Assembly: GCA_002723155.1 (NCBI GenBank)
Contig: PBNO01000002.1
Coordinates: 491,033-542,103, forward strand
From: Ponticaulis sp.
GTDB lineage: Bacteria > Pseudomonadota > Alphaproteobacteria > Caulobacterales > Hyphomonadaceae
Direction of reading: 5' to 3'
DNA length: 51,071 nucleotides
Shown: positions 8,594 to 27,627 of the stretch, one piece after another
How positions within the stretch are numbered: position 1 is the stretch's first letter
How the letters are laid out: every line of letters begins with the position of its first letter
Program-made: the position numbers and the translations under genes
Notes under the pieces: model-generated
What the model saw: the letters and a program-made list of their open reading frames with translations, nothing else
What the model was told of the DNA's origin: nothing
Databases searched by the model: none

Positions 8594-8839
8594 ATGTGTC
8601 TAGCCATTCCAGGTCAGGTCATTGAAGTGAACGGCATGATCGGTGCGGTAGAGATTGGCGGCGTGCGTCGTGATGTATCTTTCGCGCTGATCGACGAGCC
8701 AAAAATCGGTGACTATGTGCTTGTCCATGTCGGCAATGCCATTGCTGCAATCGACGAAGACGAAGCTATGAAAACGCTGGAAGCTTTTGAAGAGCTTGCG
8801 GCGGCTATGGATCTTCTAGAGCGGGGCGGCGCGGCATGA
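8594..8839 (+). CDS. hypC: Hydrogenase assembly chaperone HypC
   Basis: Small chaperone that, with HypD, assembles and carries the Fe(CN)2CO unit to the large subunit. It starts MCLAIPGQV; Cys2 is the essential residue. 81 residues, normal length. It overlaps hypD by four bases (ATGA). No second hypC-like gene (hupF) is seen in the window, so this protein may serve the large subunit alone. Confidence 0.96.
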   Translation: MCLAIPGQVIEVNGMIGAVEIGGVRRDVSFALIDEPKIGDYVLVHVGNAIAAIDEDEAMKTLEAFEELAAAMDLLERGGAA

Positions 8840-12451: not shown

Positions 12452-13823
12452 GAGCCAGCTTCTGAGTGCAGAAGCTCTGGCATCGCTCACTGAAGTTCCG
12501 TTCAATGTCGAAGGGCTGTCGGGCGGTCAGGAAGCCGTGTGGCTGGAAGTTATCGGCAAGATGGAGGAGGTCTATACCGGCCTTCTGCAAGATGAGGCCG
12601 AACTCGAAGAGAAAAACGCTGCGCTGGAAGATGCCAAGCGCTTCATCGATTCTGTTCTGTCAGCCATGTCAGACCTTATGGTCGTCTGTGATCGCAAGGG
12701 AAACATTCTCCAGCTGAACCGCGCATTTTCCGAACTGGCTGGCGAAACAGAAGAAGAGCTGCTGGGCAAATCCCTTCGCGACATGGTCATAACGCCTGAC
12801 GACGAAGCAGACTTCTCACTTCGCTCCTGCCATGACACGGAAGCCCGCCTAAAAACGGCACGCGGCCTGAGCGATCTGTTCTCGCTGACCTGCACCATGC
12901 GTAAAGACCGCCGTGGACGTCAGGGTGGTTACGTTATCACCGGGCGCCCGATCGGAGAGCTGCGCCGCGCGTATGCGGCGCTCGAACGCGCGCATGATGA
13001 CCTAAAACAGTCTCAACAACGCATGATCTATGCGGAGAAAATGGCCAGTGTCGGACGGCTCGTCGCGGGCGTGGCACACGAGCTGAACAACCCGATCAGC
13101 TTTGTCTATTCCAATATGCATCCGCTGAAAGACTATGCCGCCCGCCTGCAGCAATATCTCTCCATCGTCCACAACATGCCGGGCAATGAAGAGCTGTCAG
13201 CGGTTCGCAAAAGCCTCGGCATTGATGACATTCTGGATGACCTGCCGCCGCTAGTCGAAGCCGTTGAAGAAGGCGCAGAGCGCGCACGTGACATCGTCAA
13301 AGGCCTGCGGCGTATGTCCTTTTCAGGGCCTGAGAATTCCAAGCAGATCGACATGTCTGCTATCGTGACCAGCGCGCTGACATGGGCACGGCGGGGGCGC
13401 AAAGCCGATGTGAATATCTCGCTCGCGCTCGGAAACAACCTCTTCATTATGGGGCAGGAAAGTCAGGTCCAGCAGGTCGCGCTGAACCTCATCCAGAACG
13501 CATTCGATGCGATGCAGGGCATGCCGGATCGTCGCCTCGATATCCAGACCTATCGCGAAAATGGCCAGATCATTGCAAAATTCCGCGACTATGGCCCGGG
13601 CATTCCTGAAGACCTGCTCGCCAAGATTTTCGAACCGTTCTTCACCACCAAAGATATTGGCGAGGGTACCGGCCTCGGCCTCTGGGTGAGCTTTGACATT
13701 GTCAAAGCACATGGCGGTGACCTGACAGCAGATAATCATCCGGACGGGGGGGCCGTCCTCACAATGAGTCTGCCGGCAATGGCAGCGCCAGAACAAATAC
13801 ATGACGGGGAAGAGGACACATGA
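12426..13823 (+). CDS. hupT: Soluble PAS-domain histidine kinase HupT/HoxJ
   Basis: Sensor kinase partner of HupR. The 465-residue protein has no membrane segment. It has a coiled N-terminal part (about 45-75), a PAS domain (about 72-180), a phosphoacceptor helix with H218 in GVAHELNNP, and a HATPase domain with N-box NLIQNAFDAM (N358 region), DYGPGIP (388-394), FEPFFTTK and GTGLGLW (414-420). This soluble PAS architecture matches HupT/HoxJ, which in related bacteria receives a signal from a regulatory hydrogenase (HupUV/HoxBC); none is in this window. It overlaps hupR by 26 bases and the DUF3422 gene by 4. Confidence 0.92.
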   Translation: MGSQNTPNESQLLSAEALASLTEVPFNVEGLSGGQEAVWLEVIGKMEEVYTGLLQDEAELEEKNAALEDAKRFIDSVLSAMSDLMVVCDRKGNILQLNRAFSELAGETEEELLGKSLRDMVITPDDEADFSLRSCHDTEARLKTARGLSDLFSLTCTMRKDRRGRQGGYVITGRPIGELRRAYAALERAHDDLKQSQQRMIYAEKMASVGRLVAGVAHELNNPISFVYSNMHPLKDYAARLQQYLSIVHNMPGNEELSAVRKSLGIDDILDDLPPLVEAVEEGAERARDIVKGLRRMSFSGPENSKQIDMSAIVTSALTWARRGRKADVNISLALGNNLFIMGQESQVQQVALNLIQNAFDAMQGMPDRRLDIQTYRENGQIIAKFRDYGPGIPEDLLAKIFEPFFTTKDIGEGTGLGLWVSFDIVKAHGGDLTADNHPDGGAVLTMSLPAMAAPEQIHDGEEDT

Positions 13824-15130
13824 CGGACGAATTCGGAGTATCATCTCCACGACCGCATCCGCTCAGAAACGAGCTCGCAAATGAACTTCATGCGCGGCCT
13901 TCCTCACCTGTTACCCCGCCTGCTGTCGTTCTTCGCTTGGCATTGGTCACGCAGGAAATGGCGGCCTCAGCCGACCGCAATTTCGTGGAAGACCTCTGTC
14001 ACCGGTTTAACTCCGCGCCTCCGGGCGAGAATTCCCGCTGGCACGCGGCGCGGCTCGGCGATGTTTATCTGCGCTGGGAACGCCACACAGAGCTCTCAAC
14101 GCTTACGCTTCATTGGTCAGCGCCCGATGATCATGTGCGCTTTGATTCCAAATGCCCACCCGGCTGGCCTGCAAACTGGTTGGAAGGCGCGCCTGGCGTC
14201 GTTCTGAGCGCCGTCCATATGGAAATCGCACGCGGCAGCGAACCTGACCATGATGCCCTCTACGAACAGTTCGGCGAAGATCTCTCCATTGTCGGCGGCG
14301 GTCCGAGCTCCAGCTTTGCCGCGACCGATTTCAAACTGGATGCAGACGGGTTTTGCCGCGTTGCTGTGTGGAGCGACGACGAACAGCCCGCAGAGCTTGG
14401 CCGAAAGGTTCAGAAGCTTCTGGAAATCGAAACCTATCGCATGGCGGCGCTGCTCTCATTTCCTGTCGCGACCGAAGCGCGTGACCAGCTTGGCGAGATC
14501 GAAAACGAAATTGGTCTTGTTATGTCGAGCCTGGTTGAGGGCGAGCGCGATGGCGAAGACTCTGCGCTTCTGGCGCGCGTCTCCGAACTCTCCGCTAAAG
14601 CTGAGGCAATGGCGGCGCGAACCAGCTACCGGTTTGCTGCGGGCCGCGCCTATCACCGCATCGTTCGCGAGCGTCTTGAGACGTTCAATTATCCCCGCGA
14701 TGCCAAGGACGGCCTCGCTAATGTACAAACCTATGAGGCTTTCCTGTCTCGCCGTCTCGAACCGGCTATGCGTACCTGCGATGCCGTGGAAACGCGCCAG
14801 CAAGCCCTGATCGAACGGATTGCACGCGCGACCAGTCTTCTGGCGACGCGCGTTGATGTCAAAATCGGCGAGCAAAATGCAGAGCTGCTAACTTCTATGA
14901 ACACTCGCACCGAGGCCCAGCTGAAACTGCAGGAAACGGTAGAAGGTCTCTCAGTCTTCGCGATCAGCTATTACGCTGTCGGCCTGTTCGGGTATGCGAT
15001 CAAAGCCATTCATTATGCGGGCGTGCCGGTTGATCCGAATATCGCGACCGGCATTGCAGTGCCTATTGTTATGGGTGTTTTGTGGCTCGGCCTTAAACAG
15101 CTCAAGAAATCACTCGGCCATTCCAGCTGA
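13820..15130 (+). CDS. DUF3422 family membrane protein
   Basis: A 436-residue member of DUF3422, a family of unknown function widespread in alpha- and betaproteobacteria. The diagnostic N-terminal motif HPLRNELANELHARP is present (about residues 12-26). The middle is a long soluble region with charged helical segments, and the C-terminus has two hydrophobic segments (about 378-398 and 403-425) ending in a basic tail (KQLKKSLGHSS), so it is probably anchored in the inner membrane with most of the chain in the cytoplasm. Its start overlaps the hupT stop (ATGA), which puts it in the hydrogenase operon. Its 3' end overlaps the usher gene on the other strand by 21 bases. Confidence 0.88.
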   Translation: MTDEFGVSSPRPHPLRNELANELHARPSSPVTPPAVVLRLALVTQEMAASADRNFVEDLCHRFNSAPPGENSRWHAARLGDVYLRWERHTELSTLTLHWSAPDDHVRFDSKCPPGWPANWLEGAPGVVLSAVHMEIARGSEPDHDALYEQFGEDLSIVGGGPSSSFAATDFKLDADGFCRVAVWSDDEQPAELGRKVQKLLEIETYRMAALLSFPVATEARDQLGEIENEIGLVMSSLVEGERDGEDSALLARVSELSAKAEAMAARTSYRFAAGRAYHRIVRERLETFNYPRDAKDGLANVQTYEAFLSRRLEPAMRTCDAVETRQQALIERIARATSLLATRVDVKIGEQNAELLTSMNTRTEAQLKLQETVEGLSVFAISYYAVGLFGYAIKAIHYAGVPVDPNIATGIAVPIVMGVLWLGLKQLKKSLGHSS

Positions 15131-17842
15131 AGCTTCAGATAAGCGAACGAGTTCCGGGCGGAGAATATCGCCCGGCGCCACATGCACTTCAGTTGGCTCA
15201 AAGTCCGGAACGCTCAGCGTGTAGCACCCCGGCGTGACGAACTGGAAGAAGATATAGCCGTCAAAAGCGGAGCGTTCACGTTCGCGCTTACCATCCGGTT
15301 CACACGAGTTGAGCTCGGCGATACGTCCATCAATCGGATCACCATTCTCGTCCTTAAGCTCGACCTCAACCTCACCGCTCATTACAACAGGCAGATCAAT
15401 ACTCACTACGCCGGCTGGGCGCGCAGTGAAGCTCGCGCCTTCCGTTGCGGGAATGAGATAAGGGTCGCTCAGCTCGTCCCGGCTGACCGACACGCCAATT
15501 ACTTCGGTTGTCGACAGGTCATCCAGAACGACGCGATCATCATTGGATATAAGACGCGAACGCGGCTCGGTAATCACTGCAGCGTCCGGAATGATACGGT
15601 CTTCCCCCGGCGTGTAGACACCATCAAGGTTCATATCTTCATAGACACGAATGCTCGCGACACCTCGATTGGACCGCGCATTTCGCCCGAACCGCATGCC
15701 ACGGCCACCCGGATGACGGTCAAAATTAAAGCCCAGCGTAAAGAGCGCCGAGGTCTGGCTGTCTTCCAGATCATGGCGCAGATCCATGCCGAGGCGGATG
15801 CCATCGAAATCACGTGACAAGGATGCGCCCACCGTGCGGCTTTCGGACTGGAAATCGTGTGAGTAGCGAAAGCGCCCGAACCAGTCATTTACGCGTCGCG
15901 CAATTTCAAACTGACCGCGTGACAGCTCAACTTCAGGCCGGAGGCTCATGTCGAGAGAGCCCCGCATACGAAAATCACCAACCGAGCCAGAGACGTTCAG
16001 CGCACTGTTCGCGGTTTCAGTCATACCGTTTCCGTCAGAATCGCTCCAGCGCCAATTAGCCGTCTGACTGACGGAGACACCAGCAACCTGACCGGAGAGA
16101 CGGCCCTGCGCGGCAAAGTCCTGCGCCCCATCAGAACGTTCGCTGCCCGTGAAACCGAAAGACCAACCCGCGCCATTTACAAACCCGAACGGCTCGACAC
16201 GTCCGTCAAAACGAAGACTTCCCCGGCGAACAAGCTGAGCGCTGTCATTCTCATCATCGAGCTGGCCAAACCGGTCGGTATAGTTTTCGGCTGTGGCATT
16301 CACTGATACGCCGCGAAATTCGGTCGAATATGTGAGACGGAGCGCATTCTCTCCTGAGTCCTCAATAGCAAAGTCACCTGACAACACATGCACGCCGGAC
16401 CGCTGCGCGAGTGTCAAAAATGCAGACTGGTGATCACCAAGCCCCTCTCCACCCCGCAGCTGCGCGCCGAGCGAAGCAGACAGCGAATTGGTCAGACCCA
16501 TCGTCATTTCCGAATACGCAACATAACCCTGCCCGCGATCACCTGCGAGAAAGTCTTCATCCTCGCCTTCATTGCCAATCGTATCGTCGTCAAAATCAAG
16601 CTGGGCTGCATCACGGGGGTTCATGAAAACCCCGCGCCCGAGAAGTGCGAATTCGGCCGTGTATTCCATATCGCCGCGTCGCACGAAGGCGTCAGAAATA
16701 TCAACAGGCCGTTCAATCGTACGGCGTTCGCCAAGCGGGCCGTAAAGTTCGATGCGGAAGCGGTTGATACCAAAGGTCAGCGGAACTTCGTCGAAAATAT
16801 AACGCCCGCTGGAGGGCACAGTCAGAAAGCCGAGCAGCTGTCCATCGCGGTACAATTCGGCCTGCCAGCCTGCGAAGGCTTCACCTTCAAGACGTGTCGT
16901 ATCGAAGTCGCCACCACGGCGCAGGCGTGAGCGCGACACCTGAACACCAAGACCGGCCCCGCCCCCATTCAGTAGTGGATGAGTGGAGGTGGACACATCG
17001 CCAATGCGGAAGTTCGTTGCGCCATAACCGCCCAGCACCCCGGAAAACAAATGCCCGCTTGCATCTGTCCGGCTGAGCGACAACCGCGCGGTTCGCTGGC
17101 CGTCCGTATTCGCACTGGCGAACAGTTCGCCCGTCATCCGCAGAAAATCACCGGTTAGAGAGATATTCGCCGATGCGTCTGAGATGCGCGGGTCGGGGCC
17201 TGCAAGATTATAGCTGATATCAGCGGCGCCGTACGGCCAGCCAATCCATGAGTACGGTGCGTCCACCGGTGACAGCGCACCGACATCAAGGCGCGGCGCA
17301 CGTCTGCCGCTGCCTTGTGTCCGGCGATTACGCATCGACACTTCTTCGGCAGGCAGAAGATAGTCAGGCTCCAGATTAATCGTCTGGTTCTGGGCATTCC
17401 ATTCTGAATTCAGACCGAACCAGGATGTGAGAAGCCCTAAGGGCACATGCAGACGCTCACCATCAGTGCGAAGGCGCGATGGCCGAAATTCAAACGTCTC
17501 ACCGGCGATCGTGACCGTGCCGCTGGCCCCATCCAGTTCGAAGGTCTGAGTTTCACGAAGGAACCAGCCGGACGCTGTGCCTTCGGCGTCATTCACCTCA
17601 ATCGGAAACTCGAGCGCGTAGAAAAAGTCTTCAAGCGGCAGCAGCAGATCAGCGCCATCGCCATAGGCGAAAACATCCTGCGCAATCACAGCCCGGCGGC
17701 GAAGACGCAGCTCGATGATGCGAAAATCAATCTCCTGCGTTTCACTCAAGGCGGGCGGGCCAGCCGTTCCGTCTGGCAGCGTCCAGCGCGTCAGGCATAG
17801 CACCGCCGACACGGACAATATGACCGCCAGAAACCGTTTCAT
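15110..17842 (-). CDS. Outer-membrane fimbrial usher (chaperone-usher pathway)
   Basis: A 910-residue usher that would form the outer-membrane pore through which fibre subunits are assembled. It starts with a signal sequence (MKRFLAVILSVSAVLCL), followed by a short N-terminal periplasmic part. The long beta-barrel region includes the usher-like segment FRIGDVSTSTHPLLNGGGAG and the plug-type segment FGINRFRIELYGPLGERRT. The C-terminus has compact beta domains (VELKDENGDPIDGRIAEL, with a Cys pair in NSCEPDG and TPGCYTL). It is divergent from classical FimD and closer to CfaC/TcfC-type ushers by eye. It is the last gene of the locus, 37 bases after the chaperone, and its 3' end overlaps DUF3422 by 21 bases. 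Confidence 0.85.
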   Translation of the reverse strand: MKRFLAVILSVSAVLCLTRWTLPDGTAGPPALSETQEIDFRIIELRLRRRAVIAQDVFAYGDGADLLLPLEDFFYALEFPIEVNDAEGTASGWFLRETQTFELDGASGTVTIAGETFEFRPSRLRTDGERLHVPLGLLTSWFGLNSEWNAQNQTINLEPDYLLPAEEVSMRNRRTQGSGRRAPRLDVGALSPVDAPYSWIGWPYGAADISYNLAGPDPRISDASANISLTGDFLRMTGELFASANTDGQRTARLSLSRTDASGHLFSGVLGGYGATNFRIGDVSTSTHPLLNGGGAGLGVQVSRSRLRRGGDFDTTRLEGEAFAGWQAELYRDGQLLGFLTVPSSGRYIFDEVPLTFGINRFRIELYGPLGERRTIERPVDISDAFVRRGDMEYTAEFALLGRGVFMNPRDAAQLDFDDDTIGNEGEDEDFLAGDRGQGYVAYSEMTMGLTNSLSASLGAQLRGGEGLGDHQSAFLTLAQRSGVHVLSGDFAIEDSGENALRLTYSTEFRGVSVNATAENYTDRFGQLDDENDSAQLVRRGSLRFDGRVEPFGFVNGAGWSFGFTGSERSDGAQDFAAQGRLSGQVAGVSVSQTANWRWSDSDGNGMTETANSALNVSGSVGDFRMRGSLDMSLRPEVELSRGQFEIARRVNDWFGRFRYSHDFQSESRTVGASLSRDFDGIRLGMDLRHDLEDSQTSALFTLGFNFDRHPGGRGMRFGRNARSNRGVASIRVYEDMNLDGVYTPGEDRIIPDAAVITEPRSRLISNDDRVVLDDLSTTEVIGVSVSRDELSDPYLIPATEGASFTARPAGVVSIDLPVVMSGEVEVELKDENGDPIDGRIAELNSCEPDGKRERERSAFDGYIFFQFVTPGCYTLSVPDFEPTEVHVAPGDILRPELVRLSEASAGMAE

Positions 17843-17879
17843 TGAAAGCGAGCCCCCTCACCCGAACCGTTATGCCGGA

Positions 17880-18752
17880 TCAGCCAATGTCAGCCGCAGC
17901 AATGAGCTCTGCATTGTTTTCATCGGTCTCGAAGACAACGCGGGCAGGTACGGCGCCCGTCACGGTGACAGGAACGGAGACAATGCGTGTCTGCAGCGGT
18001 GCGAGCACAGACACACCGCGCAGCAGACCAATTTCCTCACCAGCGGCATCGTAGACGCGAACAACACCGTGATCGGCCCAGTCGCCCGTACGGTTCAGCG
18101 TGACGAGAACGCGGGTACCATCTGAATCCGGTTGGGCTTCAACGCGAGCCGACTGGATCTCAGTCCCCATCACGCCCTCGCCTGTCCGCAGGATCACCGG
18201 AATAGTGATGCGGTATTCAAGACCAACGCGGACTTCGACAGACGTGCTTTCTTCTGTCGTTGTTTCGTCTTCCAGTTCGTCGACTGGCGCGACCGTCGGG
18301 ATGGAGGAAAACCGCAAGTGCGAGCGGAATTCACCGGCCTCAAGATCACGCGGCGCGCGTGAAATCACACGCACAACCTGACGCTCACCCGGCCCTAGGG
18401 TTACCTGACGCGGCGCATAGCGAAGATAGCGCGAAGCTGACCAATCCGGTGCGTCCGCGCCCTCTTCGAGCGGAGCGTAACCACCCTGCGAAAGCGCTTC
18501 CAGCTCAACATCCTCGACACGATAGGTTACCGTCTCGCCGCCGGAGTTATAGAGTGTGACCTCACCGCGGCTATCGCCCGGCTCTAGCACAAGGCGTGTC
18601 GGTGTAAGCGACAAACCGCCAAACGGAGAGACAGCTTCGGTTGGCACAGCGTCAAAGCGGCTCGGGCCCTCAACCGCCAGATCATTCGCCTGACCGAAGG
18701 CAGGAGTAGCGGCCATCAGGCCCAGAGAGGCAGCAATCAGCATCGGTTTCAT
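17880..18752 (-). CDS. Periplasmic fimbrial chaperone (PapD-like)
   Basis: Periplasmic chaperone that would hold the subunits in an assembly-ready state. Signal peptide MKPMLIAASLGLMAATPAFG, then an Ig-like domain with the family pattern SLTPTRLVLEPGDSRGEVTL and RYAPRQVTLGPGERQVVRV, then a second domain (about 180-290). It is longer than PapD because of an acidic insert (DELEDETTTEEST) between strands. The open frame begins at a TTG at 18773 that overlaps the preceding stop, but AGGA sits 8 bases before the ATG at 18752, and the signal peptide starts cleanly there, so I use 18752. It lies between the last subunit gene and the usher. Confidence 0.85.
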   Translation of the reverse strand: MKPMLIAASLGLMAATPAFGQANDLAVEGPSRFDAVPTEAVSPFGGLSLTPTRLVLEPGDSRGEVTLYNSGGETVTYRVEDVELEALSQGGYAPLEEGADAPDWSASRYLRYAPRQVTLGPGERQVVRVISRAPRDLEAGEFRSHLRFSSIPTVAPVDELEDETTTEESTSVEVRVGLEYRITIPVILRTGEGVMGTEIQSARVEAQPDSDGTRVLVTLNRTGDWADHGVVRVYDAAGEEIGLLRGVSVLAPLQTRIVSVPVTVTGAVPARVVFETDENNAELIAAADIG

Positions 18753-18769
18753 GACAGGATTCCTCATCA

Positions 18770-19330
18770 TCAATATTCGGTTTCAAGTTCGAGCGCGCCA
18801 AACGCGCCATCTCCGGTCGCCGCCGAAGGTAAAAGAGTGAAGTTTGTGCCTGCGCGCAGAACCACGCGACCCGCTTCGGAGGTACAGATCAGGCGATAGC
18901 GGTCGCCGAGCGCTTCCAGCTCGCCGCCCTCTACCGCAATGTCTGACATGGAGATTTCAATGCCTTCCGCGTCAGAGCGGGCATTGATTTTCAGGTCGAG
19001 CGTGTCACCCTTAGCGCAGGCAATCTCAAAGGCGGCAGCCTGCGCTTCATCACCGGCATAGCATCCGTCCGGTGTCACCTCGCCAGCCCCGTAGGTGCCA
19101 GTAGAGTCTGTCACCGTGACCGCGCCCTGACTGTCAAAGCCATACTGGCAAAAGCCCGATTTTGGCACACCAATCTGGCCAAAACTGCCCTCGGTCGCCT
19201 CTACCGCCGTTGTCGAAATCTCCGCCGGAGACACGATCTCGGCACGCAACGGCGCAACCACGGTCTGCGCCGAAGCGGACATGCCCATCATCGCAAGCAG
19301 TGATGCGCAGAAGAAAGTCCAGACCCGCAT
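18770..19330 (-). CDS. Fibre subunit 9, DUF4402-like secreted protein
   Basis: Last of nine related subunit genes, just before the chaperone. 186 residues: signal peptide ending in SASA, a donor-strand-like segment VVAPLRAEIVSPAE, the shared SFGQIGVPKSGFCQY motif (family pattern FG-x-[VIL]...C-x-Y), and the other three family cysteines in GCYAG, IACAKG and LICTSE. It ends LELETEY, an alternating hydrophobic strand with a terminal aromatic, as pilins recognised by PapD-type chaperones do. It is one of the most divergent copies, which suggests a specialised position in the fibre (base or tip). Its start shares one base region with the end of subunit 8. Confidence 0.8.
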   Translation of the reverse strand: MRVWTFFCASLLAMMGMSASAQTVVAPLRAEIVSPAEISTTAVEATEGSFGQIGVPKSGFCQYGFDSQGAVTVTDSTGTYGAGEVTPDGCYAGDEAQAAAFEIACAKGDTLDLKINARSDAEGIEISMSDIAVEGGELEALGDRYRLICTSEAGRVVLRAGTNFTLLPSAATGDGAFGALELETEY

Positions 19331-19944
19331 TAGTACTGAATTTCAAGCGGAAGCGTAACGGAGAAGCTTTCATCCTTTTCAGGGACCCCCGCTTCCAGGC
19401 GGAGATAGACCCCTCCATACATCGTCACAGTACGCGTCGCCTGATCGTCATTTCCCGGACGGCAATAAGTATTGAATTCAAAAACTCCGCCACCCTCGTT
19501 TGATCGCGTCGACGTCACATTATAGAGATCATCACCCGAGCCATACAGCGACTGAAATTCGGCGTAGTCATTTGAGGTGAAAGTATCGCGCTGAGTACGG
19601 ATCTGCACGTACGTTCCGACTGGACACGTATAGCTGATCGTCGGCGTCAGAACGTTATCGTTCAGCGCGCCACATCCTGCGCTATTGAATCCCGGGGCTT
19701 CCTGATAGGTCCCTTGCAGTTCGGAAAAATGGAGCACATTATTGTCTCCAATAAGATACCGGCATACATTGTTGGGGCTACGCGCCACAGACCCGAAGCT
19801 GCCGTCGGTCAGGACTTTCATCTCAGCCAGTGCGACCGGCGACACGATCGTGCCTTCAACGGTGATATCAACAGAGTTCTGAGCGACGGCAGACTGCGTG
19901 CCCAGAAGCGCAAGCGACACAATACTTAAAACATGAAGTTTCAT
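19330..19944 (-). CDS. Fibre subunit 8, DUF4402-like secreted protein
   Basis: About 204 residues. The open frame extends to 19986, but GAGG lies 6 bases before the ATG at 19944, and that start gives a clean signal peptide (MKLHVLSIVSLALLGTQSAVA), 7 bases after the previous gene, so I use it. The mature part has VDITVEGTIVSPVALAEM, SFGSVARSPNNVCRY, and cysteines in GCGALN, YTCPVG and YCRPGN. It ends VTLPLEIQY. The C-x-Y position and the four cysteines match the other eight subunits; the central loops differ. Confidence 0.8.
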   Translation of the reverse strand: MKLHVLSIVSLALLGTQSAVAQNSVDITVEGTIVSPVALAEMKVLTDGSFGSVARSPNNVCRYLIGDNNVLHFSELQGTYQEAPGFNSAGCGALNDNVLTPTISYTCPVGTYVQIRTQRDTFTSNDYAEFQSLYGSGDDLYNVTSTRSNEGGGVFEFNTYCRPGNDDQATRTVTMYGGVYLRLEAGVPEKDESFSVTLPLEIQY

Positions 19945-19951
19945 CGTAACC

Positions 19952-20548
19952 TCACTCAAATTGGAAAGTAACAGGAATGGCGACATCGTAGGATCCGGAC
20001 GGAATGTCGTTCTGCTCGCCCTGGATCAGCGCGTAGACCTCCAGGTTTAGATAGTGCTCGTCATCCAGATCCCGACCGGAGGGGCAGGTCAGCACAAAAT
20101 CATATCCGTCATCTCCCCGTGCGGTTCCGGCAATTCTTTCACCGAAAAGAACAGCTCTGGCAGAAAACGACATCGCGCTCGTCGGATATTCAATGCCAAC
20201 GCGTATAGGAAGTGTCATGCCACTGGGGCACGTCAATTCGATGATCGGCACCTGGTAGTCGCCATACTGAGCACATCCCGAAGATGTCGCACCCGGCGCA
20301 GTAATAGACTCACCGGTATTGAAGTCCTCGACGTAAAGCAGGTTTACCCGATGCTCATACAGACAGGTCGTTGTCGCAGACCGCGCGATCTGACCGAGGT
20401 CTCCCTCACTGTCGACTCTCATGGAAACCAGATCGCTCGGATTGAGAATCTCAAACGTAACGGGCACATCGAGTGAGTCTTGGGCGAGTACCGGCTGCGC
20501 CGCAAAAGCAGACGCTGCGAGAAGAAGGATTGGATAGAAACCGCGCAT
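19952..20548 (-). CDS. Fibre subunit 7, DUF4402-like secreted protein
   Basis: 198 residues with signal peptide MRGFYPILLLAASAFAAQ, cleaved near VLAQ. The core motif is DLGQIARSATTTCLY, where the usual SFG is DLG; the other cysteines are in SGCAQYG, ELTCPSG and VLTCPSG. It ends IPVTFQFE. Its start is within one base of the preceding subunit's stop. Like subunits 8 and 9 it carries an N-terminal segment with the phrase ILNPSDL/IVSPVAL, so these three form a subgroup distinct from subunits 4-6. Confidence 0.8.
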   Translation of the reverse strand: MRGFYPILLLAASAFAAQPVLAQDSLDVPVTFEILNPSDLVSMRVDSEGDLGQIARSATTTCLYEHRVNLLYVEDFNTGESITAPGATSSGCAQYGDYQVPIIELTCPSGMTLPIRVGIEYPTSAMSFSARAVLFGERIAGTARGDDGYDFVLTCPSGRDLDDEHYLNLEVYALIQGEQNDIPSGSYDVAIPVTFQFE

Positions 20549-21186
20549 TAGTATGTCGCCTCCAGCGTGACTGTGCCGATTGTCACATCAGAGCCCGCGC
20601 TCGCATCCGTACCAACAACAAGTCGGCCACCAACGGCGACATACATGGTGCCATTTGCCGGGCAGGTGCTTGTCATCGCACCGGCGCTGGAGCCTGAGGT
20701 GATGGCTGATGTGAAATCTGAATTCGCAAAGCTGCGCCATACCGTGCCAGAACCCGGTTCAAGCGTGACACCCGTGGTGCCTCCGCTTGTCCACGTCGCG
20801 GTGAAATCAACAGCGCTGGCCGCGTTACAGGTCACGCCGAACATACCATAGCTGGCATCCGGCGTTGATGTGCTGCCCCAGTCACAGCCGGAAGGCGTTG
20901 GCACGCTTGCGTCGACGAGTTGGTCAAGCTCGGAAAACTCATAGAGTGCATAGGTCGGCGTCGTACCACTCACGCCAACATTGTATTCACAGGTATGCCC
21001 CGTCTCGGTGCCGTTCGGAATATTGACCGCACCAAAGCTGAGCGTGCCTTCCGTGCCAATCGCGAGCGGCGGCGTTGATTGCTGCAGTGTCGCCACCGCA
21101 TCGACCGTCGCTGAGTCCTGCGCGCTTGCGAGACCCGTCAAACCGAGTGTCAGCGCTGCAACCAGTGTTTTAGATGTCAGTTTCAT
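20548..21186 (-). CDS. Fibre subunit 6, DUF4402-like secreted protein
   Basis: 212 residues: signal peptide MKLTSKTLVAALTLGLTGLASA, donor-strand-like ATVDAVATLQQSTPPLAIG, SFGAVNIPNGTETGHTCEY, cysteines in GCDWGS, VTCNAA and STCPANG, and C-terminal VTIGTVTLEATY. It is closely related to subunits 5 and 4 over the whole length (shared NIPNGTE, PTPSGCDWG, FTATWTSGGTTGV), so these three arose by recent duplication and may be the major repeated subunits. AGAGGG precedes the ATG. Confidence 0.82.
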   Translation of the reverse strand: MKLTSKTLVAALTLGLTGLASAQDSATVDAVATLQQSTPPLAIGTEGTLSFGAVNIPNGTETGHTCEYNVGVSGTTPTYALYEFSELDQLVDASVPTPSGCDWGSTSTPDASYGMFGVTCNAASAVDFTATWTSGGTTGVTLEPGSGTVWRSFANSDFTSAITSGSSAGAMTSTCPANGTMYVAVGGRLVVGTDASAGSDVTIGTVTLEATY

Positions 21187-21197
21187 GTGGAGGCCCT

Positions 21198-21827
21198 CTA
21201 GTAAGTTGCGTCGAGCGTGACTGTGCCGAAATTGACGTCAGTCGCCGCAGTGGCGTTCGTTCCGACGCGAACCTGTCCGCCAACGGCGACATCGAAACTG
21301 CCGCTATTCGGGCAGGTGGCGGTCATCGCCCCGTTCCCGCCATTTGCGAGTGCGGTGTAAGTTCCCGAAAGAAATGCTCGCAAGGACATGCCAGACCCCT
21401 GACGCAGCTCGACACCTGTCGTGCCGCCACTCGTCCAGGTGGCGGTGAAATTGATCACGCTGGATGGATTACAGCTGATAGCGAACGCGCCATAGGACGC
21501 ATCTGGCGTACCGCTACTCCCCCAGTTGCAGCCTGATGGCGTAGGCGCACTTCCGTCTATCGCAGAACCCTGCTCGCTATATTCAAGCAGTGACGTCTGC
21601 GGCGTCGCTTCACTGACGGTTATCAGATATCCGCAGACATGATCGGTCTCTGTACCGTTCGGGATGTTAACGGCGCCAAAGCTGAGGCTGGATTCACCGG
21701 AAAGAGCGAGTGCAGGAGTCGATTCCTCCAGCGTCACAACCGCGTCGATAGATGAATTCTGCGCGCTGGCCATACCCGCGAAACCAAGGGTCAGCGCTGC
21801 CATCAGAGTTGTAGATTTCATGATCAT
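21198..21827 (-). CDS. Fibre subunit 5, DUF4402-like secreted protein
   Basis: 209 residues: signal peptide MIMKSTTLMAALTLGFAGMA, then SIDAVVTLEESTPALALSG, SFGAVNIPNGTETDHVCGY, cysteines in GCNWGS, ISCNPS and ATCPNSG, and C-terminal VNFGTVTLDATY. It is the closest relative of subunit 6; the blocks PTPSGC, ASYG and FTATWTSGGTTGV are identical. It lies 11 bases from subunit 6, with GGGG 9 bases before the ATG. The four cysteines would give two disulfides, consistent with an oxidised periplasmic or surface protein. Confidence 0.82.
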   Translation of the reverse strand: MIMKSTTLMAALTLGFAGMASAQNSSIDAVVTLEESTPALALSGESSLSFGAVNIPNGTETDHVCGYLITVSEATPQTSLLEYSEQGSAIDGSAPTPSGCNWGSSGTPDASYGAFAISCNPSSVINFTATWTSGGTTGVELRQGSGMSLRAFLSGTYTALANGGNGAMTATCPNSGSFDVAVGGQVRVGTNATAATDVNFGTVTLDATY

Positions 21828-21839
21828 ACGAAATCGCCC

Positions 21840-22460
21840 CTAGTAAGTCGCGTCGAGTGTAATGGAGCCGACCGTCACATCCGTTGCCGCAACCACCTCG
21901 TCCGAAAGCTCGATGCGACCACCAATGCCAACATCAAACGTTCCGCCATTCGGGCAGGTCGCAGACAAAGTGCCCGCCGAAGTTCCAACCGCCAGAGTCG
22001 TCGTGGAATTGGACTGGAAAGCTCGCAAAGGCGCACCGCTGGAAGGTCTATTGAAGAAAATCCCTGTTACGCCGCCCGTGGCGTATCCCACGGTAAAATC
22101 AACAACACTTGCCGGATTGCACGCTACGCCGATGAGAGCGTAGTTGCCCGAAGGCGAACCTGATTCCCCCCAGTCGCACCCTGACGGGTTCGGCGTGCTG
22201 GAAGAAACGGTCGTGCCGTTCTCGTCCAGCTCGTAGACAGTCCATGTAGAGATTACATTCTGGTAGCGGCACTTATGCCCCTCTTCCGTACCATTCGGGA
22301 TATTCACCTCACCAAAAGAAAGCGCCCGCGTTCCTGTCAGCACCAGAGGCGGCGTCGTCGAGACGGGAGTTGCAACCGCGTCGACGCTTGCGCTTTGCGC
22401 TGCTGCTGAGCCGATAAGAGCGATCGCCGTGGCCGCCGAAATACCAATCGATCTGATCAT
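21840..22460 (-). CDS. Fibre subunit 4, DUF4402-like secreted protein
   Basis: 206 residues: signal peptide MIRSIGISAATAIALIGSAAA, then SVDAVATPVSTTPPLVLTG, SFGEVNIPNGTEEGHKCRY, cysteines in GCDWGE, VACNPA and ATCPNGG, and C-terminal VTVGSITLDATY. It is the third member of the close trio with subunits 5 and 6. AGGAAG lies before the ATG; 10-11 bases separate it from its neighbours on each side, the same compact spacing seen through the array. Confidence 0.82.
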   Translation of the reverse strand: MIRSIGISAATAIALIGSAAAQSASVDAVATPVSTTPPLVLTGTRALSFGEVNIPNGTEEGHKCRYQNVISTWTVYELDENGTTVSSSTPNPSGCDWGESGSPSGNYALIGVACNPASVVDFTVGYATGGVTGIFFNRPSSGAPLRAFQSNSTTTLAVGTSAGTLSATCPNGGTFDVGIGGRIELSDEVVAATDVTVGSITLDATY

Positions 22461-22470
22461 GACGATCTTC

Positions 22471-23118
22471 CTATTCGTAATATGCGTTTAGCGTGATGCT
22501 GCCGACACTAACTTCTGATCCGGTTGGAGTTGCCGTAGTCACAGCCAATGTCCCACCGACCCAAACATCCAAAGACCCGCCCTGACACGTCGTCCAAAGA
22601 TCAGCATATAAGTCTGATGCCAGGACATCCTGCTGCCCCGCCTCGGTTACAAGAATGGTAGAATCATCGAGAGCTCGATTCATTGCGGCAGTCGCAGCAA
22701 GTGTCGGATTCACGACATGCTCCACCGCCAGGCCAATCGTAACGTCTGGGGTACAAGTGACCGCGAAATGTCCACTGCTCAATCCCTCACTCGAAGGTCC
22801 ATCGCACCCTAAAGTCGGATTTCCCGGAGCATAGGTTTGAGGGGCACCGCTCGACGCAGCTGCCTGATAGAGTGGGCGGACCGTGTCTGGCCCCGTCACG
22901 CCCAAAGAGTAATAACATGCAGCGCCTCCCAACTCTTCGATCGGCTTGTTAACCACACCAAATGAAAGTGAACGCGCGCCGGTCACGGCCAATGGCACGA
23001 CTGGATCATTGATCGTGGCGGTCGCGTCGATTACCGCGCTGTCCTGCGCGTGTGCGGTGCCCATCAGCCCGATGGAAAGCGCTGCGATAAGGCCGATATG
23101 TCTGGTCTTCCTGATCAT
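22471..23118 (-). CDS. Fibre subunit 3, DUF4402-like secreted protein
   Basis: 215 residues from the ATG at 23118. The frame is open much further upstream, to 23289, but that would overlap subunit 2; AGGGGA before 23118 and the signal peptide MIRKTRHIGLIAALSIGLMGTAHA fix the start. Mature features: VIDATATINDPVVPLAVTG, SFGVVNKPIEELGGAACYY, cysteines in GCDGPS, VTCTPD and TTCQGG, and C-terminal VSVGSITLNAYYE. It keeps all four cysteines but has a longer loop before the C-x-Y motif. Confidence 0.82.
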   Translation of the reverse strand: MIRKTRHIGLIAALSIGLMGTAHAQDSAVIDATATINDPVVPLAVTGARSLSFGVVNKPIEELGGAACYYSLGVTGPDTVRPLYQAAASSGAPQTYAPGNPTLGCDGPSSEGLSSGHFAVTCTPDVTIGLAVEHVVNPTLAATAAMNRALDDSTILVTEAGQQDVLASDLYADLWTTCQGGSLDVWVGGTLAVTTATPTGSEVSVGSITLNAYYE

Positions 23119-23128
23119 TGGGTGTCCC

Positions 23129-23668
23129 CTATTCGTATTGGGCTTCAAGCCGGATCGTGCCGACCTGGCCGGTAAAACTGGATGGAGCAGAAGGTGTAAC
23201 GGTGAGGCGACCGCCCGCGTTGACGTCTGAAAGGCCGTCTGCGTCACAGGCGCGGGTCTGCAACGCGCCGGACGCGGCAAACCCGTCAATCGCCATCGGG
23301 TTGGACGGCGCAGAGAACGTCGCCCCGGATGGCGCAGAATTGGTGTAGATCACTTCATAGGTGACGAGGGCATCGGCTTCACAGGCGACAGAGAATTCTG
23401 CCTGTAGAATCTGACCTGCAAGGAACTGACATTCAGCCCCGCCAGACAGCACGCTGCCGCCCATCGCCGTTACGTCATAAACGCACGTGCCACTGCGCGG
23501 CACAGCCAGCGTTCCGAAAGAGAGGTCGCCCTCGCCCACAATATCGATCGGCGTGACCAGCTCTGCGCTTGCTGTCACATCTGCCTCTGAGGCGACAGAT
23601 GGCATGACAAGCAAGAGCATGGCCGCACCGACCGACATCAGGCCGCGTATGAGTGTTCCCCCACCCAT
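23129..23668 (-). CDS. Fibre subunit 2, DUF4402-like secreted protein
   Basis: 179 residues from the ATG at 23668, four bases after the stop of subunit 1; an upstream open extension to 23761 would lie inside subunit 1 and is rejected. Signal peptide MGGGTLIRGLMSVGAAMLLLVMPSVA. Mature features: VTASAELVTPIDIVGEG, SFGTLAVPRSGTCVY, cysteines in AECQFL, VACEAD and RACDAD, and C-terminal VGTIRLEAQYE. It is the shortest subunit and closest in its core motif to subunit 9 (PRSGTC versus PKSGFC). Confidence 0.8.
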   Translation of the reverse strand: MGGGTLIRGLMSVGAAMLLLVMPSVASEADVTASAELVTPIDIVGEGDLSFGTLAVPRSGTCVYDVTAMGGSVLSGGAECQFLAGQILQAEFSVACEADALVTYEVIYTNSAPSGATFSAPSNPMAIDGFAASGALQTRACDADGLSDVNAGGRLTVTPSAPSSFTGQVGTIRLEAQYE

Positions 23669-23672
23669 GCGG

Positions 23673-24308
23673 TTAGTCGTAAATCGCTTCGATTGTGTAG
23701 GTTCCAACAGAGCCGGTGTATGGCGTCGCTGTGCCCGCGACCTCCAGGCGGCCGCCCACAATCAGGTTTCGCGATCCGTCACACGACGACACGCTTAAGA
23801 CTGCGTCTTGGCCAGGCACCTGAAAACTGATGCCGTTATAGAGCGCACCACCATCCTGAGTTGCTGTCGCAGTTAATGAAAATGGCGCATCTGCTGGGCA
23901 GTCAACATCAATTTCGCCGTAGCTCGGCGGGTCAATGAAAGCACAACTTTCATGTGGCGGATCATAACTCCCTCCAGAATTGTCGTTATACCACGCGCCG
24001 TTGATAATGACATCCGCTTCGCTAAATCCAACTTGAGGGTGCGGAACATTAAAACCGTTAGCGTTGACCGGCCAAGAAAGTGCGGGGTCCGTGTCATCGA
24101 CAGTGAGGAAGTAGGTACAGAATTCGGACGCATCAGACGGAATCGTAACCGTCCCAAAGCTGACATTCGATAGTGTCGATAACCCCATCGGTGGCGCTGT
24201 CGCCACCACATTCGCGCTGGCATCCACCGTCGCGCTTTGTGCGAGGGCCTGCTGACCGATAAGAGCTGCCGCAGCGGCGAGCCCGATATAAGAAAACTTC
24301 CTGTCCAT
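23673..24308 (-). CDS. Fibre subunit 1, DUF4402-like secreted protein
   Basis: First gene of the nine-subunit array. 211 residues: signal peptide MDRKFSYIGLAAAAALIGQQ ending at ALAQ, then TVDASANVVATAPPMGLST, SFGTVTIPSDASEFCTY, cysteines in ESCAFI, VDCPAD and SSCDGS, and C-terminal VGTYTIEAIYD. A loop rich in Asn, Asp, Gly and Pro (about residues 85-120) is not found in the other copies. GGGAGTGGGAA precedes the ATG. Being nearest the leader, it should be transcribed most, or encode the tip; which of these cannot be decided from sequence. Confidence 0.82.
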   Translation of the reverse strand: MDRKFSYIGLAAAAALIGQQALAQSATVDASANVVATAPPMGLSTLSNVSFGTVTIPSDASEFCTYFLTVDDTDPALSWPVNANGFNVPHPQVGFSEADVIINGAWYNDNSGGSYDPPHESCAFIDPPSYGEIDVDCPADAPFSLTATATQDGGALYNGISFQVPGQDAVLSVSSCDGSRNLIVGGRLEVAGTATPYTGSVGTYTIEAIYD

Positions 24309-24471
24309 TTCCCACTCCCGGAATCATGACGTCACTGGGAGTCACGATCCGAGCCGGAAAAAGCGGACATGGATTTAAGACTTTTTTCGCAGAAATACGG
24401 ATTTTCTGCAGTTTCGCGTTAAGGTTTCGCGCAAGGCGGGAAGGACAGGCCCGCCCCTCACCAATCAGGCG
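24309..24471 (-). promoter_or_regulatory. Leader of the fibre operon with direct and inverted repeats
   Basis: The 163 bases between the kinase stop and subunit 1 hold three repeat structures. GTTTCGCG occurs twice in direct orientation (24411-24418 and 24424-24431, 13 bases apart). GCAGAAA (24389-24395) is inverted against TTTCTGC (24403-24409). ACTCCC (24314-24319) is inverted against GGGAGT (24337-24342), next to the ribosome site of subunit 1. The tandem GTTTCGCG pair would suit a promoter or regulator site; the last dyad could fold over the ribosome site. I see no standard sigma-70 promoter on the - strand. Confidence 0.4.
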
Positions 24472-26790
24472 CTAAAGCGCGTCGCGTATCTGTTCGACCT
24501 TGGCGACATAGCGCCCTGCAGCCGGACCAGCCGCCTCAAACACGATCTGCGCCTCGTCCAACATAGCCAGAGCGGTTTCGCGTTCGCCGCGCGCACCTGC
24601 AAGCTGGCCCTGATAAAGCGCCTGCATGCCGCCATAGACACTGGCCGACAGACCACCTTCTTCCAGCAGCGTTCCAGCCTCATTCAGCATCGTCTGCGCC
24701 ACTGCCAGATCATCATTCAGAATGAGCGCTTCAATCCGGCCATAGCGCGCAGCCAGTGCGGCCGGCCCAGAGGCGCTGCCATACTCATCTGCCATCGGGA
24801 TCGCCTCATCAAAAAGGGCAAGCGCACCCGCAAGATCCCCATTCTGGATTTTCAGCTTGGCATAGTTGGACATGAGCACAGCCAGCGCGACCGAGCCGCC
24901 ATAAAGATCACGGCGCAGGCGCAGCGTCTCGCTATAGGCGGTTTCAGCGTTCTGAAGGTCGCCCGTCACATGATAGAATGTCGCCAGATTGTTCATCACA
25001 TTGAGGCCGTCGGGTGATTCCAGACGCTCAATCGAGGAGAACACGTCGCGGGCGTTTTCTGTCGCCTCAATTGCGCCCGGCAAGTCACCGGTTCGCATCA
25101 GCGCCGCGCCAAGATTGGTATAGAGAATGCCCGCATCCATGGACTCACGGCCTGAGAACGCCAACCGCTCCGGAATGGCGTTACGCAAAGCTACCACAGA
25201 TGCCTCAACATCTCCCGCATCGGCCAGAAGCTGAGACTCGATCAGCGCCGCATCGAGGCGAGCATCGGTGTAAAGGTCAGGATTTTCAGCCCAGACAGTA
25301 CGCGCGTCATCCAGGTATGTGCGGGACTCCCCGGCGTTGCCGAGACGGAACAGGATAACCGCCAGATCATGTCTGGCCTGCGCAATGAGACTACGGTCAA
25401 AACTGTCATCAGGCAGGTCGGCTACCGCGCGCAAGAGAGGTTCTGCCGCCTGATAGTCATTCATCAGGTAAAAAATCTCGCCATACATGTGCAGCACAGG
25501 CGCGGCTTCGGCAGGGTTGTCTTCAAACTCTTCCAGAACACGTTGCGCGGACCGGCTGACAAGCTCACGCGAGGTCGTCTCCGCCCCGTCGCTAGCCTCT
25601 GAGAACATAACGAACGTCGCCTGTTGCATGGCGCGAAGGCGTTCACGTTCCTGAATAGCCAGGTCGCGCTCACGGGCGGCTTCTTCTGCCTGCCAAATTG
25701 TGCCAGCAAGGCCAGCGCCAAGCGCCAGAATGACAGCAGAAACGGCGGTAGTCGCAAGGGCGTTCCGCTTCAGGAACAGCCCGAGACGATAGCCCGTGCC
25801 ACCTGCCATCGCCTGAACAGGCCGATTGGTAAGCCACGCACGAATATCTGCGCCGAGCGCTTCGGCAGACGAGTAGCGGTCCTCCGGCTCATCTGCGAGC
25901 GCTTTGGCAAGAATGGCTTTGATAGAATCTGGCTCTCCCTCAGCATCTACATTCAGCGACATGCCTGTGCGGGTTGCGGTTTGCCCCGTCAGTGATTCAT
26001 GAAGCGTCGCACCAAGGCCGAATACATCGGTTTCAACGCTTGCCGCCTCTCCGCGCAGTTGCTCAGGCGCAGCATAACGCAGCGTCATTGGTGCGCGGGA
26101 TTCATCATCCTCGGTCAGAAGCCCTGCCACGCCGAAGTCAATCAGACGCGGTGTACCATCTGCCGTGACCAGAATATTGTTCGGCTTGATATCGCGGTGA
26201 AGCACCAGACGACCATGGGCATGGCTGACCGCATCGCAAACTTTCAGAAAGAGGCGCAGCACCGCCTCACGAGGAAGCTTTTTCTCTCTGGCGAACACAT
26301 CAATCGGCGCGCCATCAACATGCTCCATAACGAGGAATGGCCTGCCATCTTCAGCAACACCGCCATCAATCAGGCGACCAATGCCGGAATGTTCAAGATT
26401 GGCGAGCACCTGACGCTCGCGGGCAAACAAATCCCAGGTCCGCCGATCATTCGACGCGATCAGTTTCAGCGCGGCCGTCTGGTCGTAAAGGCCATCAGCG
26501 CGGGTGGCGAGATAAACTTCGCCCATGCCGCCAGCGCCAAGTGATCGTCCGATTTGCCAATTGCCGAGGCGTGTGCCCTCAGCGAGGCTTTTGCCGGTGA
26601 CAACCATGCCGTCATCACCAGTCGCGAGGAAACCTGTCTCGCGCTCGGCAGCATTCACAAGGCGCAGCACCTGTTCGGCAATGTCCTCGGTTTCAGCTTT
26701 TGACCGGATGAAATCAGCCCGGGTTTCAGCAGACATCTCCATCGCATCATCAAATAATGCGCTGACTTTGTCCCAGTTTTCGATCTGCAT
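24472..26790 (-). CDS. Transmembrane Ser/Thr protein kinase with TPR-like C-terminus
   Basis: Hanks-type kinase of about 772 residues. An N-terminal leader (1-70) is followed by the kinase domain: glycine loop LGAGGMGEVYLA (about 84-95), catalytic Lys in ALKLI (about 109), HRDIKPNN (198-205), DFG (218-220) and APEQ (about 241-244). One membrane segment (about 344-365), then a short coiled coil and a long alpha-helical, TPR-like region facing the periplasm. A TTG at 26802 opens the frame, but GGAG overlaps it and serves the ATG at 26790. It directly follows the ECF sigma gene (31 bases), the usual pairing for ECF43 systems, where the kinase activates the sigma factor by phosphorylating a threonine. 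Confidence 0.9.
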   Translation of the reverse strand: MQIENWDKVSALFDDAMEMSAETRADFIRSKAETEDIAEQVLRLVNAAERETGFLATGDDGMVVTGKSLAEGTRLGNWQIGRSLGAGGMGEVYLATRADGLYDQTAALKLIASNDRRTWDLFARERQVLANLEHSGIGRLIDGGVAEDGRPFLVMEHVDGAPIDVFAREKKLPREAVLRLFLKVCDAVSHAHGRLVLHRDIKPNNILVTADGTPRLIDFGVAGLLTEDDESRAPMTLRYAAPEQLRGEAASVETDVFGLGATLHESLTGQTATRTGMSLNVDAEGEPDSIKAILAKALADEPEDRYSSAEALGADIRAWLTNRPVQAMAGGTGYRLGLFLKRNALATTAVSAVILALGAGLAGTIWQAEEAARERDLAIQERERLRAMQQATFVMFSEASDGAETTSRELVSRSAQRVLEEFEDNPAEAAPVLHMYGEIFYLMNDYQAAEPLLRAVADLPDDSFDRSLIAQARHDLAVILFRLGNAGESRTYLDDARTVWAENPDLYTDARLDAALIESQLLADAGDVEASVVALRNAIPERLAFSGRESMDAGILYTNLGAALMRTGDLPGAIEATENARDVFSSIERLESPDGLNVMNNLATFYHVTGDLQNAETAYSETLRLRRDLYGGSVALAVLMSNYAKLKIQNGDLAGALALFDEAIPMADEYGSASGPAALAARYGRIEALILNDDLAVAQTMLNEAGTLLEEGGLSASVYGGMQALYQGQLAGARGERETALAMLDEAQIVFEAAGPAAGRYVAKVEQIRDAL

Positions 26791-26821
26791 ACCCCACTCC
26801 AAATTGCAGATTTCAGTGTGT

Positions 26822-27430
26822 TCAGTCCGGCATTCGGGTTGTCTGACCTGATGCCAGATGCGAGCGCAGCATGGCTCTCGCCTTCACCCAGTCCCGGCGG
26901 ACTGTTTTCTCATTCATGTCGAGCACTAGCGCTGTTTCCTCCAGCGTCAGCCCGACAAAGTATCGGCAATCGACCACCCGCACGAGGCGCGGATCATGTT
27001 CGGCGATGAATTCCAGCCCCTGACGCACAGCGATGATGTCTTCCGGCGAAAGCTGATTGTCGCCCTCAATATCCATGTCATCGATATCGTCACCGATAGC
27101 CTCTGGCGGCGCAGCGTTGTCTCCGCCTTTACGGGCATGGTCGATCAGTGTGTGACGGATGGCGAGCGTGACCGAAGCGAAGAAATGCTGGTCGTCTACG
27201 AATTTCCGCTTCTGGCTGAGACGCAGAAAAGCTTCATGGACAAGCGTCGTTGTGTTCAGTGTTTCAGACAGGCTGCGGCGGCGCCTTAGCCGCCGGGCAA
27301 TCGCGAGAAGCTCGTCATAATTGTTCTCGAACAGCTCTGCAGAGGCCTGCGCGACAGCTTCATCATAGCCGCTTGTGTTGAACGGTTCACGTCCAGCAGC
27401 GCCTGATGAGTTACCCGTCGAAGAAGCCAT
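26822..27430 (-). CDS. ECF-family RNA polymerase sigma factor (ECF43-like)
   Basis: A 202-residue extracytoplasmic-function sigma factor. Region 2 is about residues 25-100, with the family-typical segment SETLNTTTLVHEAFLRLSQK and RHTLIDHARKG; an acidic linker (about 110-130) leads to region 4 (about 130-192) with the helix-turn-helix LTLEETALVLDMNEKTVRRDW. In ECF43-type factors such as EcfP of Vibrio and Xanthomonas, a Thr in the position of T60-T62 here is phosphorylated by a neighbouring kinase to allow core RNA polymerase binding. No anti-sigma gene is present, as expected for that mechanism. First gene of the - strand block that continues into the kinase and fibre genes. Confidence 0.9.
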   Translation of the reverse strand: MASSTGNSSGAAGREPFNTSGYDEAVAQASAELFENNYDELLAIARRLRRRRSLSETLNTTTLVHEAFLRLSQKRKFVDDQHFFASVTLAIRHTLIDHARKGGDNAAPPEAIGDDIDDMDIEGDNQLSPEDIIAVRQGLEFIAEHDPRLVRVVDCRYFVGLTLEETALVLDMNEKTVRRDWVKARAMLRSHLASGQTTRMPD

Positions 27431-27467
27431 ACACCTGCCTGATACCCAGAAATTCTACTTAAAGAAC

Positions 27468-27541
27468 ATACTAGACTTCCAAGGCTTGCACACAAGTAAA
27501 CCGGTCATGTTCTTCAGGTATTTCGAATAGAAAACATGTTT
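27468..27541 (-). promoter_or_regulatory. Possible promoter and palindromes upstream of the ECF gene
   Basis: On the - strand, TTGTGT (27495-27490) and TAGTAT (27473-27468), 16 bases apart, resemble -35/-10 boxes placed suitably for the ATG at 27430. AAGAACAT (27462-27469) is inverted against ATGTTCTT (27507-27514), flanking this pair. AAACATGTTT (27532-27541) is a perfect 10-bp palindrome. Any of these may bind a regulator; all are weak calls. Confidence 0.3.
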
Positions 27542-27578
27542 AACGCCAATCGGTTCCTATTTGGGTGGCGCACAACAA

Positions 27579-27611
27579 AAAAGAGCAGGCCTTGGGGGAG
27601 CCTGCTCTTTC
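27579..27611 (-). terminator. Intrinsic terminator of ald
   Basis: An 11-bp perfect stem, AAAGAGCAGGC (27580-27590) with GCCTGCTCTTT (27600-27610), and on the - strand a run of T directly after it (complement of the A-run at 27577-27582). It lies 17 bases beyond the ald stop and separates ald from the ECF gene region. Confidence 0.85.
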
Positions 27612-27627
27612 TGGGGGGAGGTTGGAT

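Follow-up and report, generated by a model that had tools for sequence, protein, structure and literature searches.

A nine-subunit DUF4402-type locus of Ponticaulis sp. that probably encodes a chaperone-usher surface fibre next to a sigma factor and Ser/Thr kinase pair

What do nine consecutive genes for small, diverged secreted proteins build, and how might their expression be controlled? The question is raised by a 51,071-nucleotide stretch of the Ponticaulis sp. contig PBNO01000002.1 (positions 491,033 to 542,103; called here the window, whose own numbering is used below), in which an earlier note had listed nine subunit genes followed by genes encoding a chaperone and an usher. In the chaperone-usher pathway, the G1 strand of a PapD-like chaperone completes the fold of each pilin and the usher, usually folded as a plugged 24-strand barrel, catalyses donor-strand exchange. 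Our analysis makes it very likely that the product of these genes is a surface fibre made by the chaperone-usher pathway, of the DUF4402/alpha-type-usher kind and composed of nine different pilins, whose expression is probably switched by a sigma factor and a kinase; the fibre genes had been listed correctly, but this pair, encoded just upstream, had been missed.

Along the minus strand, from 27430 down to 15110, lie in this order the genes encoding an extracytoplasmic function (ECF) sigma factor, a Ser/Thr kinase, nine four-cysteine subunits (S1 to S9), a chaperone and a 910-residue open reading frame (ORF). As proposed, the subunits are small secreted products of consecutive ORFs (24308-18770; 179-215 residues from the likely starts): S1 (23673..24308, 211 residues, supported by the ORF, the alignment and BLASTP), S2 (23129..23668, 179 residues from the ATG at 23668), S3 (22471..23118, 215 residues from the ATG at 23118, the mechanical ORF start lying upstream at 23289), S4 (21840..22460, 206 residues), S5 (21198..21827, 207 or 209 residues), S6 (20548..21186, 212 residues), S7 (19952..20548, 198 residues) and S8 (19330..19944, 204 residues from the ATG at 19944), these two belonging to a second sub-family, and S9 (18770..19330, 186 residues), which adjoins the chaperone gene. 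The count of nine is taken from the ORF list; the locus survey used below shows eight, its overlap filter having removed S2. From S1 to the 910-residue ORF the intergenic gaps are at most 37 bases or absent, so that these genes look like one transcription unit, and 163 bases separate the kinase gene from S1. Searches for sigma-70-type promoters and for terminators in 14900-27700 gave chance level only.

The signature attributed to the subunits was mostly recovered. Each of the nine mature parts carries exactly four cysteines (S9 has a fifth one in its signal peptide) and each has the C-x-Y motif. When the nine subunits were aligned with the six of Hyphomonadaceae bacterium TMED5, the invariant columns over the 15 sequences were C, Y, C, C and C, and when the seven subunits of a third genome of the same Hyphomonadaceae genus (G029) were added, 22 of 22 subunits had four cysteines after the signal-peptide region, some having extra ones before it. 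The FG-x-[VIL] motif is present in eight of the nine, S7 reading LGQI instead, and the expected aromatic end is a terminal Y in S4, S5, S6, S8 and S9 but Y or F followed by a single acidic residue in S1, S2, S3 and S7. All nine have the size of a single domain and contain an arm-like segment; their cysteines could form up to two disulphide bonds per subunit.

The DUF4402-like label given to these proteins holds for the family at the profile level, but only S2 passes the Pfam gathering cut-off for DUF4402 (PF14352, 1.7e-09, 38.9 bits for a cut-off of 25.2), which the other eight subunits do not reach. A profile built from the 15 aligned subunits matched a set of ten DUF4402-type subunits chosen by eye (98.1%, E 8e-14), and the match persisted after removal of the signal peptides (96.0%, E 3.7e-9; reversed control 0.3%, E 0.2). 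Structure prediction for one subunit, S6, yielded a model with a pLDDT of 87.9 in which residues 1-19 form no strand, and a structure search with this model returned chaperone-usher pilin entries as its top six matches and in 29 of 50 rows, including weak resemblances to FimG, PapG and Csu pilins. The free N-terminal arm and the likeness to pilins expected from the context are thus seen in this model. The first Foldseek rows, astrovirus spikes with a probability of about 0.1, were dismissed as implausible. When solved structures were searched by sequence with profiles of the usher, the chaperone, the four-cysteine subunits and DUF4402, neither an usher nor a pilin was matched.

The 910-residue protein (15110..17842, minus strand) is a putative alpha-type outer-membrane usher that the family models overlook. 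No usher model of Pfam or NCBIfam matched it or any of 18 relatives; neither CooC_C (PF15976) nor another Pfam usher model was found in any of these 19 family members at E up to 0.01, and CooC_C had no match in the Ponticaulis genome at 1e-5. What the family does match is CarboxypepD_reg (14 members) and SdrD_B (13 members), and the SdrD matches of the 19-row profile among solved structures fall toward its C-terminal end (profile positions 704-852). This 19-row profile, from which the G029 copy (broken frame), the L017 copy (contig end) and the L057 copy (fragment) were left out, showed only marginal similarity to E. coli K-12 EcpC (E 0.0017, probability 15%) and none to FimD (E 0.073). Enlarged to 36 rows with further ushers of at least 850 residues (the L157 usher, read in two pieces, being left out), the profile matched six alpha-type ushers, namely EcpC and five CooC_C-bearing proteins, over 490 columns (98.0%, E 2.8e-13; reversed control 2.2%, E 0.022). 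Against the single FimD sequence it reached only E 0.0052 (6.9%), and the six alpha ushers themselves did not match FimD (E 0.14); such weak FimD scores, even from alpha ushers, show the extent of usher divergence. The description of the protein as a CfaC/TcfC-like usher is therefore right in kind by virtue of the alpha-usher profile match, although no CooC_C domain was detected. A model of the usher predicted from two sequences had a pLDDT of 30 and was not used. In G029 (locus L013) the usher frame is broken near residue 630, by an assembly error or because the gene has decayed.

The chaperone gene (17880..18770, minus strand) encodes a 296-residue periplasmic protein devoid of cysteine. Its match to PapD_N (E 0.0057) lies under the Pfam cut-off and was counted here as PapD-like; 12 of 16 aligned chaperones matched PapD_N at E up to 0.01, in an alignment that left out those of L017, L044, L051, L054, L056 and L057. 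The chaperone profile gave marginal values against FimC (E 0.024) and EcpB (E 0.057). A PapD-like chaperone followed by a putative usher, downstream of the subunits and on the same strand, is thus borne out.

Do the three components travel together? Among 299 genomes of the order, 18 matched the usher profile, and with the 19-row profile 26 of 385 genomes of the class did. DUF4402 was detected in 17 of 249 genomes of the order, and every one of these 17 belongs to the 18 genomes with an usher; the eighteenth, G301, was presumably not drawn in the smaller sample. Twenty-four of the 28 places with DUF4402 lie within about 5.4 kb of an usher gene, the other four being on separate contigs of two fragmented assemblies (G219 and G247). 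Homologues found mostly without chaperone and usher would have spoken against the fibre; this was checked and is not what this sample contains. In 36 of the 38 loci outside the genus, one to three subunit genes are present, the other two being loci whose contig stops at the chaperone or within the usher; a chaperone is present in 37. Usher relatives were also present on seven plasmid records, labelled carboxypeptidase (-like) regulatory in four, hypothetical in one, SdrD B-like in one and unannotated in one. Five plasmid records examined for gene order all showed DUF4402 genes, a chaperone-like gene (in one case recognised by profile alone) and the usher, which four of them call "carboxypeptidase regulatory-like". 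In five loci (L046, L050, L052, L145 and L167), subunit-family ORFs of 327-339 residues are candidates for two-domain tips or over-long ORF calls. The four-cysteine form itself was seen in the three genomes of the one Hyphomonadaceae genus, with nine, six and seven subunits in the window, TMED5 and G029, respectively. A four-cysteine profile, run against 398 genomes of the order, returned only the Ponticaulis genome, TMED5 and one weak match (E 3e-7); G029, absent from these matches, was presumably not drawn.

The secreted proteins might instead be folded monomeric proteins of the surface or periplasm, and the 910-residue protein some other outer-membrane exporter. The failure of every usher family model and the poor model of the large protein would suit such an arrangement, but the alpha-usher profile match, the PapD-like chaperone kept in nearly all the other loci and the pilin-like S6 model with its free arm argue against it, and we hold it to be improbable.

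What could control the locus is suggested by the two genes upstream of S1. The first (26822..27430, minus strand) encodes a 202-residue ECF sigma factor, putatively of a phosphorylation-activated type, which matches NCBIfam TIGR02999 with 131.5 bits (cut-off 126.15) and Sigma70_ECF at 1.5e-27. In its sigma2.2 region, the DAED of ordinary ECF factors is replaced by NTTT (residues 59-62); in an alignment of three homologues this position reads NTIS in TMED5 and QTDD in G029, so that the motif is not strictly kept. The second gene (24472..26790, minus strand) encodes a Hanks-type Ser/Thr kinase (Pfam Pkinase 1.5e-36) with HRD, DFG and APE motifs, one predicted transmembrane segment (a hydrophobic stretch at about 343-366) and C-terminal TPR repeats (TPR_12 1.9e-22). 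In ECF43 factors, according to two papers, a phosphorylated Thr at the DAED position is proposed to supply the missing charge, making these factors kinase-activated (PMC13147305, PMC8999054), as reported for one of Hyphomonas neptunium (PMC8999054). Both features associated with this group are found here: loss of DAED with a Thr at the phosphosite position in the window, and an adjacent Hanks-type kinase in all three genomes.

The sigma factor and kinase genes adjoin the four-cysteine subunit genes in three of three genomes, and their divergent orientation relative to the subunits in G029 indicates that the linkage survived a rearrangement. No relatives of the pair were found in the 38 other loci, surveyed as pieces of 5.6 to 19.9 kb (19 and 18 by sequence, L142 by annotation). 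In TMED5 (locus L012), the kinase frame stops early compared to the window kinase, similar sequence resuming past the stop, and immediately upstream there is a second kinase relative.

The non-coding stretch 5' of S1 (24309..24471, minus strand) is conserved between the window and TMED5 in a pairwise alignment and is a probable promoter/operator. It contains the inverted repeat GCAGAAA-N7-TTTCTGC with perfect 7-base arms (24389..24409), present once in the window, never in 100 shuffles, and at the matching position in TMED5; among 189 locus sequences, nine loci match the pattern, all of them showing the window or TMED5 site. This possible regulator site may be the operator of yet another regulator. 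When TGTCC-N15-18-TCGTGA was tried as the sigma motif, nine sites were counted in the Ponticaulis genome and four in the backward control (five and three in TMED5, six and two in G029), which is uninformative on the regulon, and the region upstream of the sigma factor gene has no visible conservation with TMED5.

How different are the nine subunits from one another? In BLASTP comparisons within the 22-sequence set, all 15 pairs among S1-S6 matched at E of at most 1e-3 in one or both directions (best 5e-82), S7, S8 and S9 matched one another at 3e-14 to 5e-05, and a match between S2 and S9 (1e-05) bridges the two groups, which form one subunit family in the alignment. S4, S5 and S6 are 45-58% identical and have a single best TMED5 counterpart common to all three; the remaining subunits have local identities of 20-49% where BLASTP aligns them, several pairs giving no alignment. 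Counterparts of S2, S7 and S9 are found at matching relative positions and in the same order in the three genomes. S2 (75% identity to TMED5, 51% to G029) and S9 (74% and 49%) are among the most conserved subunits, and S7 is 40% and 38% identical to its counterparts. In the subunit tree, the G029 genes U3-U5 group by themselves with support; T5, U5, S8 and S3 are among its long branches, and its fine groupings, those of S3 and S4 included, are unsure. The shared counterpart of S4-S6 and the separate U3-U5 group indicate that the middle of the array grew at least partly independently, and the contrast between the conserved S2, S7 and S9 and the variable middle suggests that the fibre combines constant structural parts with variable ones.

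These relationships bear on two further explanations. An ordinary chaperone-usher fibre in which most subunits are redundant duplicates doing the same job, with the sigma factor and kinase as chance neighbours, would agree with the mutual identity and common counterpart of S4-S6 and with the further sigma factor homologues encoded elsewhere in TMED5 and G029. However, the other subunits are far apart, ordered counterparts of S2, S7 and S9 persist across the three genomes (with 49-75% identity for S2 and S9), and the best homologue of the sigma factor lies beside the fibre genes in each of the three genomes; we consider this explanation unlikely. It had also been suggested that the fibre is antigenically variable, the subunits then serving as a recombination repertoire. 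The copy number does differ between species (6, 7 and 9) and G029 has its own U3-U5 group, but only 2 of 36 subunit pairs can be aligned as DNA (66% over 635 bases for S5-S6, 70% over 126 bases for S4-S5), and no inverted repeat of at least 20 bases occurs in 14900-27700, so that neither a gene-conversion repertoire nor a switch is seen. Moreover, all nine genes are open, tightly packed frames with signal-peptide-like starts and no silent cassette was seen among them. Antigenic variation is thus unsupported, and we regard it as very improbable.

For the chaperone-usher fibre that we favour, the following course of events can be proposed. The subunits would be exported and given up to two disulphide bonds, and the chaperone would hold each of them by lending its G1 strand to the incomplete Ig-like domain. 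The usher would then thread subunits outward, the N-terminal arm of the incoming subunit displacing the chaperone strand in the previous one by donor-strand exchange. S2, S7 and S9 are probably common structural parts (base, rod or adaptors), and S3-S6, at least partly lineage-specific, could give a mixed or segmented fibre. Phosphorylation of the adjacent ECF sigma factor by the membrane kinase would probably switch on the fibre genes. The more specific proposal that nine distinct pilins are placed in a set order by a usher of a lineage that family models miss, under the control of a dedicated, kinase-phosphorylated sigma factor, and that DUF4402 is the pilin family of this lineage in Alpha-, Beta- and Gammaproteobacteria, is put forward tentatively.

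How does the locus compare with known systems? Alpha-type fimbriae are known under the names CS1/CFA-I. With this group (CS1/CFA-I, ECP), taking EcpC as the yardstick, the window shares the usher profile homology over the 490 columns, secreted subunits and a PapD-like chaperone; it differs in an usher that matches no CooC_C, TcfC or Usher model, in nine subunits of DUF4402 type, in the sigma factor and kinase pair, and in that no two-domain tip adhesin was seen. The DUF4402 loci of Alpha-, Beta- and Gammaproteobacteria (one lies on plasmid pE5SP1 of Polaromonas sp. E5S) have the same three components, in the order DUF4402, chaperone and usher on the five plasmid records, but they have one to three subunits (36 of 38), mostly zero to four cysteines per ORF, and no sigma factor and kinase pair was seen in them. 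With archaic Csu, type 1 and P pili, no sequence relation of the usher and subunits to solved members or to FimD was detectable. The likeness to the ECF43 pairs EcfP-PknT and EcfK-PknS lies in the adjacent Hanks-type kinase and in the replacement of DAED by an uncharged Thr-rich motif; the window sigma factor is likened to them by motif and kinase adjacency, and the targets reported for them are not a fibre but polymyxin resistance and a type VI secretion system (PMC13147305, PMC8999054).

The locus looks accessory and its position is not fixed, judging from a border at 27568-27570. Two close relatives (G002 and G019) are 98-99% identical to the window in the neighbouring alanine dehydrogenase-family protein, and their DNA similarity of 91-93% ends sharply at this border, just past the gene, where other genes follow; left of it, no window sequence matches the G002 and G019 pieces compared, and neither genome gave an usher or chaperone match. 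In TMED5, the fibre locus and the alanine dehydrogenase-family gene are on different contigs. On the other side, a DUF3422 gene (13820-15130, Pfam 4.1e-137) converges with the usher gene, the two sharing about 20 bases at their 3' ends. Beside the locus lies a hydrogenase cluster (73-1593 and 6309-13823) with a nickel hydrogenase large subunit gene and HypF, HypD and HypE-like (AIRS) maturation genes, followed by genes for a sigma54-type response regulator and a PAS histidine kinase; this cluster may be part of the same accessory region. No tRNA gene was found in the window.

Searches of the open-access literature found no paper on DUF4402, on the chaperone-usher pathway with Hyphomonadaceae, or joining a Hanks-type kinase, a sigma factor and fimbriae; the nine-subunit locus is an unusual variant, undescribed in the literature searched. 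The results of most general use would be the putative usher lineage that family models miss and the probable assignment of DUF4402 as a pilin family. If this is true, DUF4402 gains a function, that of pilin, the proteins labelled "carboxypeptidase regulatory-like" gain one as ushers, and fibres would be indicated in environmental bacteria for which the standard models give no sign of them. The sigma factor and kinase pair would likewise represent a phosphorylation-gated route to fibre expression, and the nine-subunit form offers a natural test of how one usher orders many pilins.
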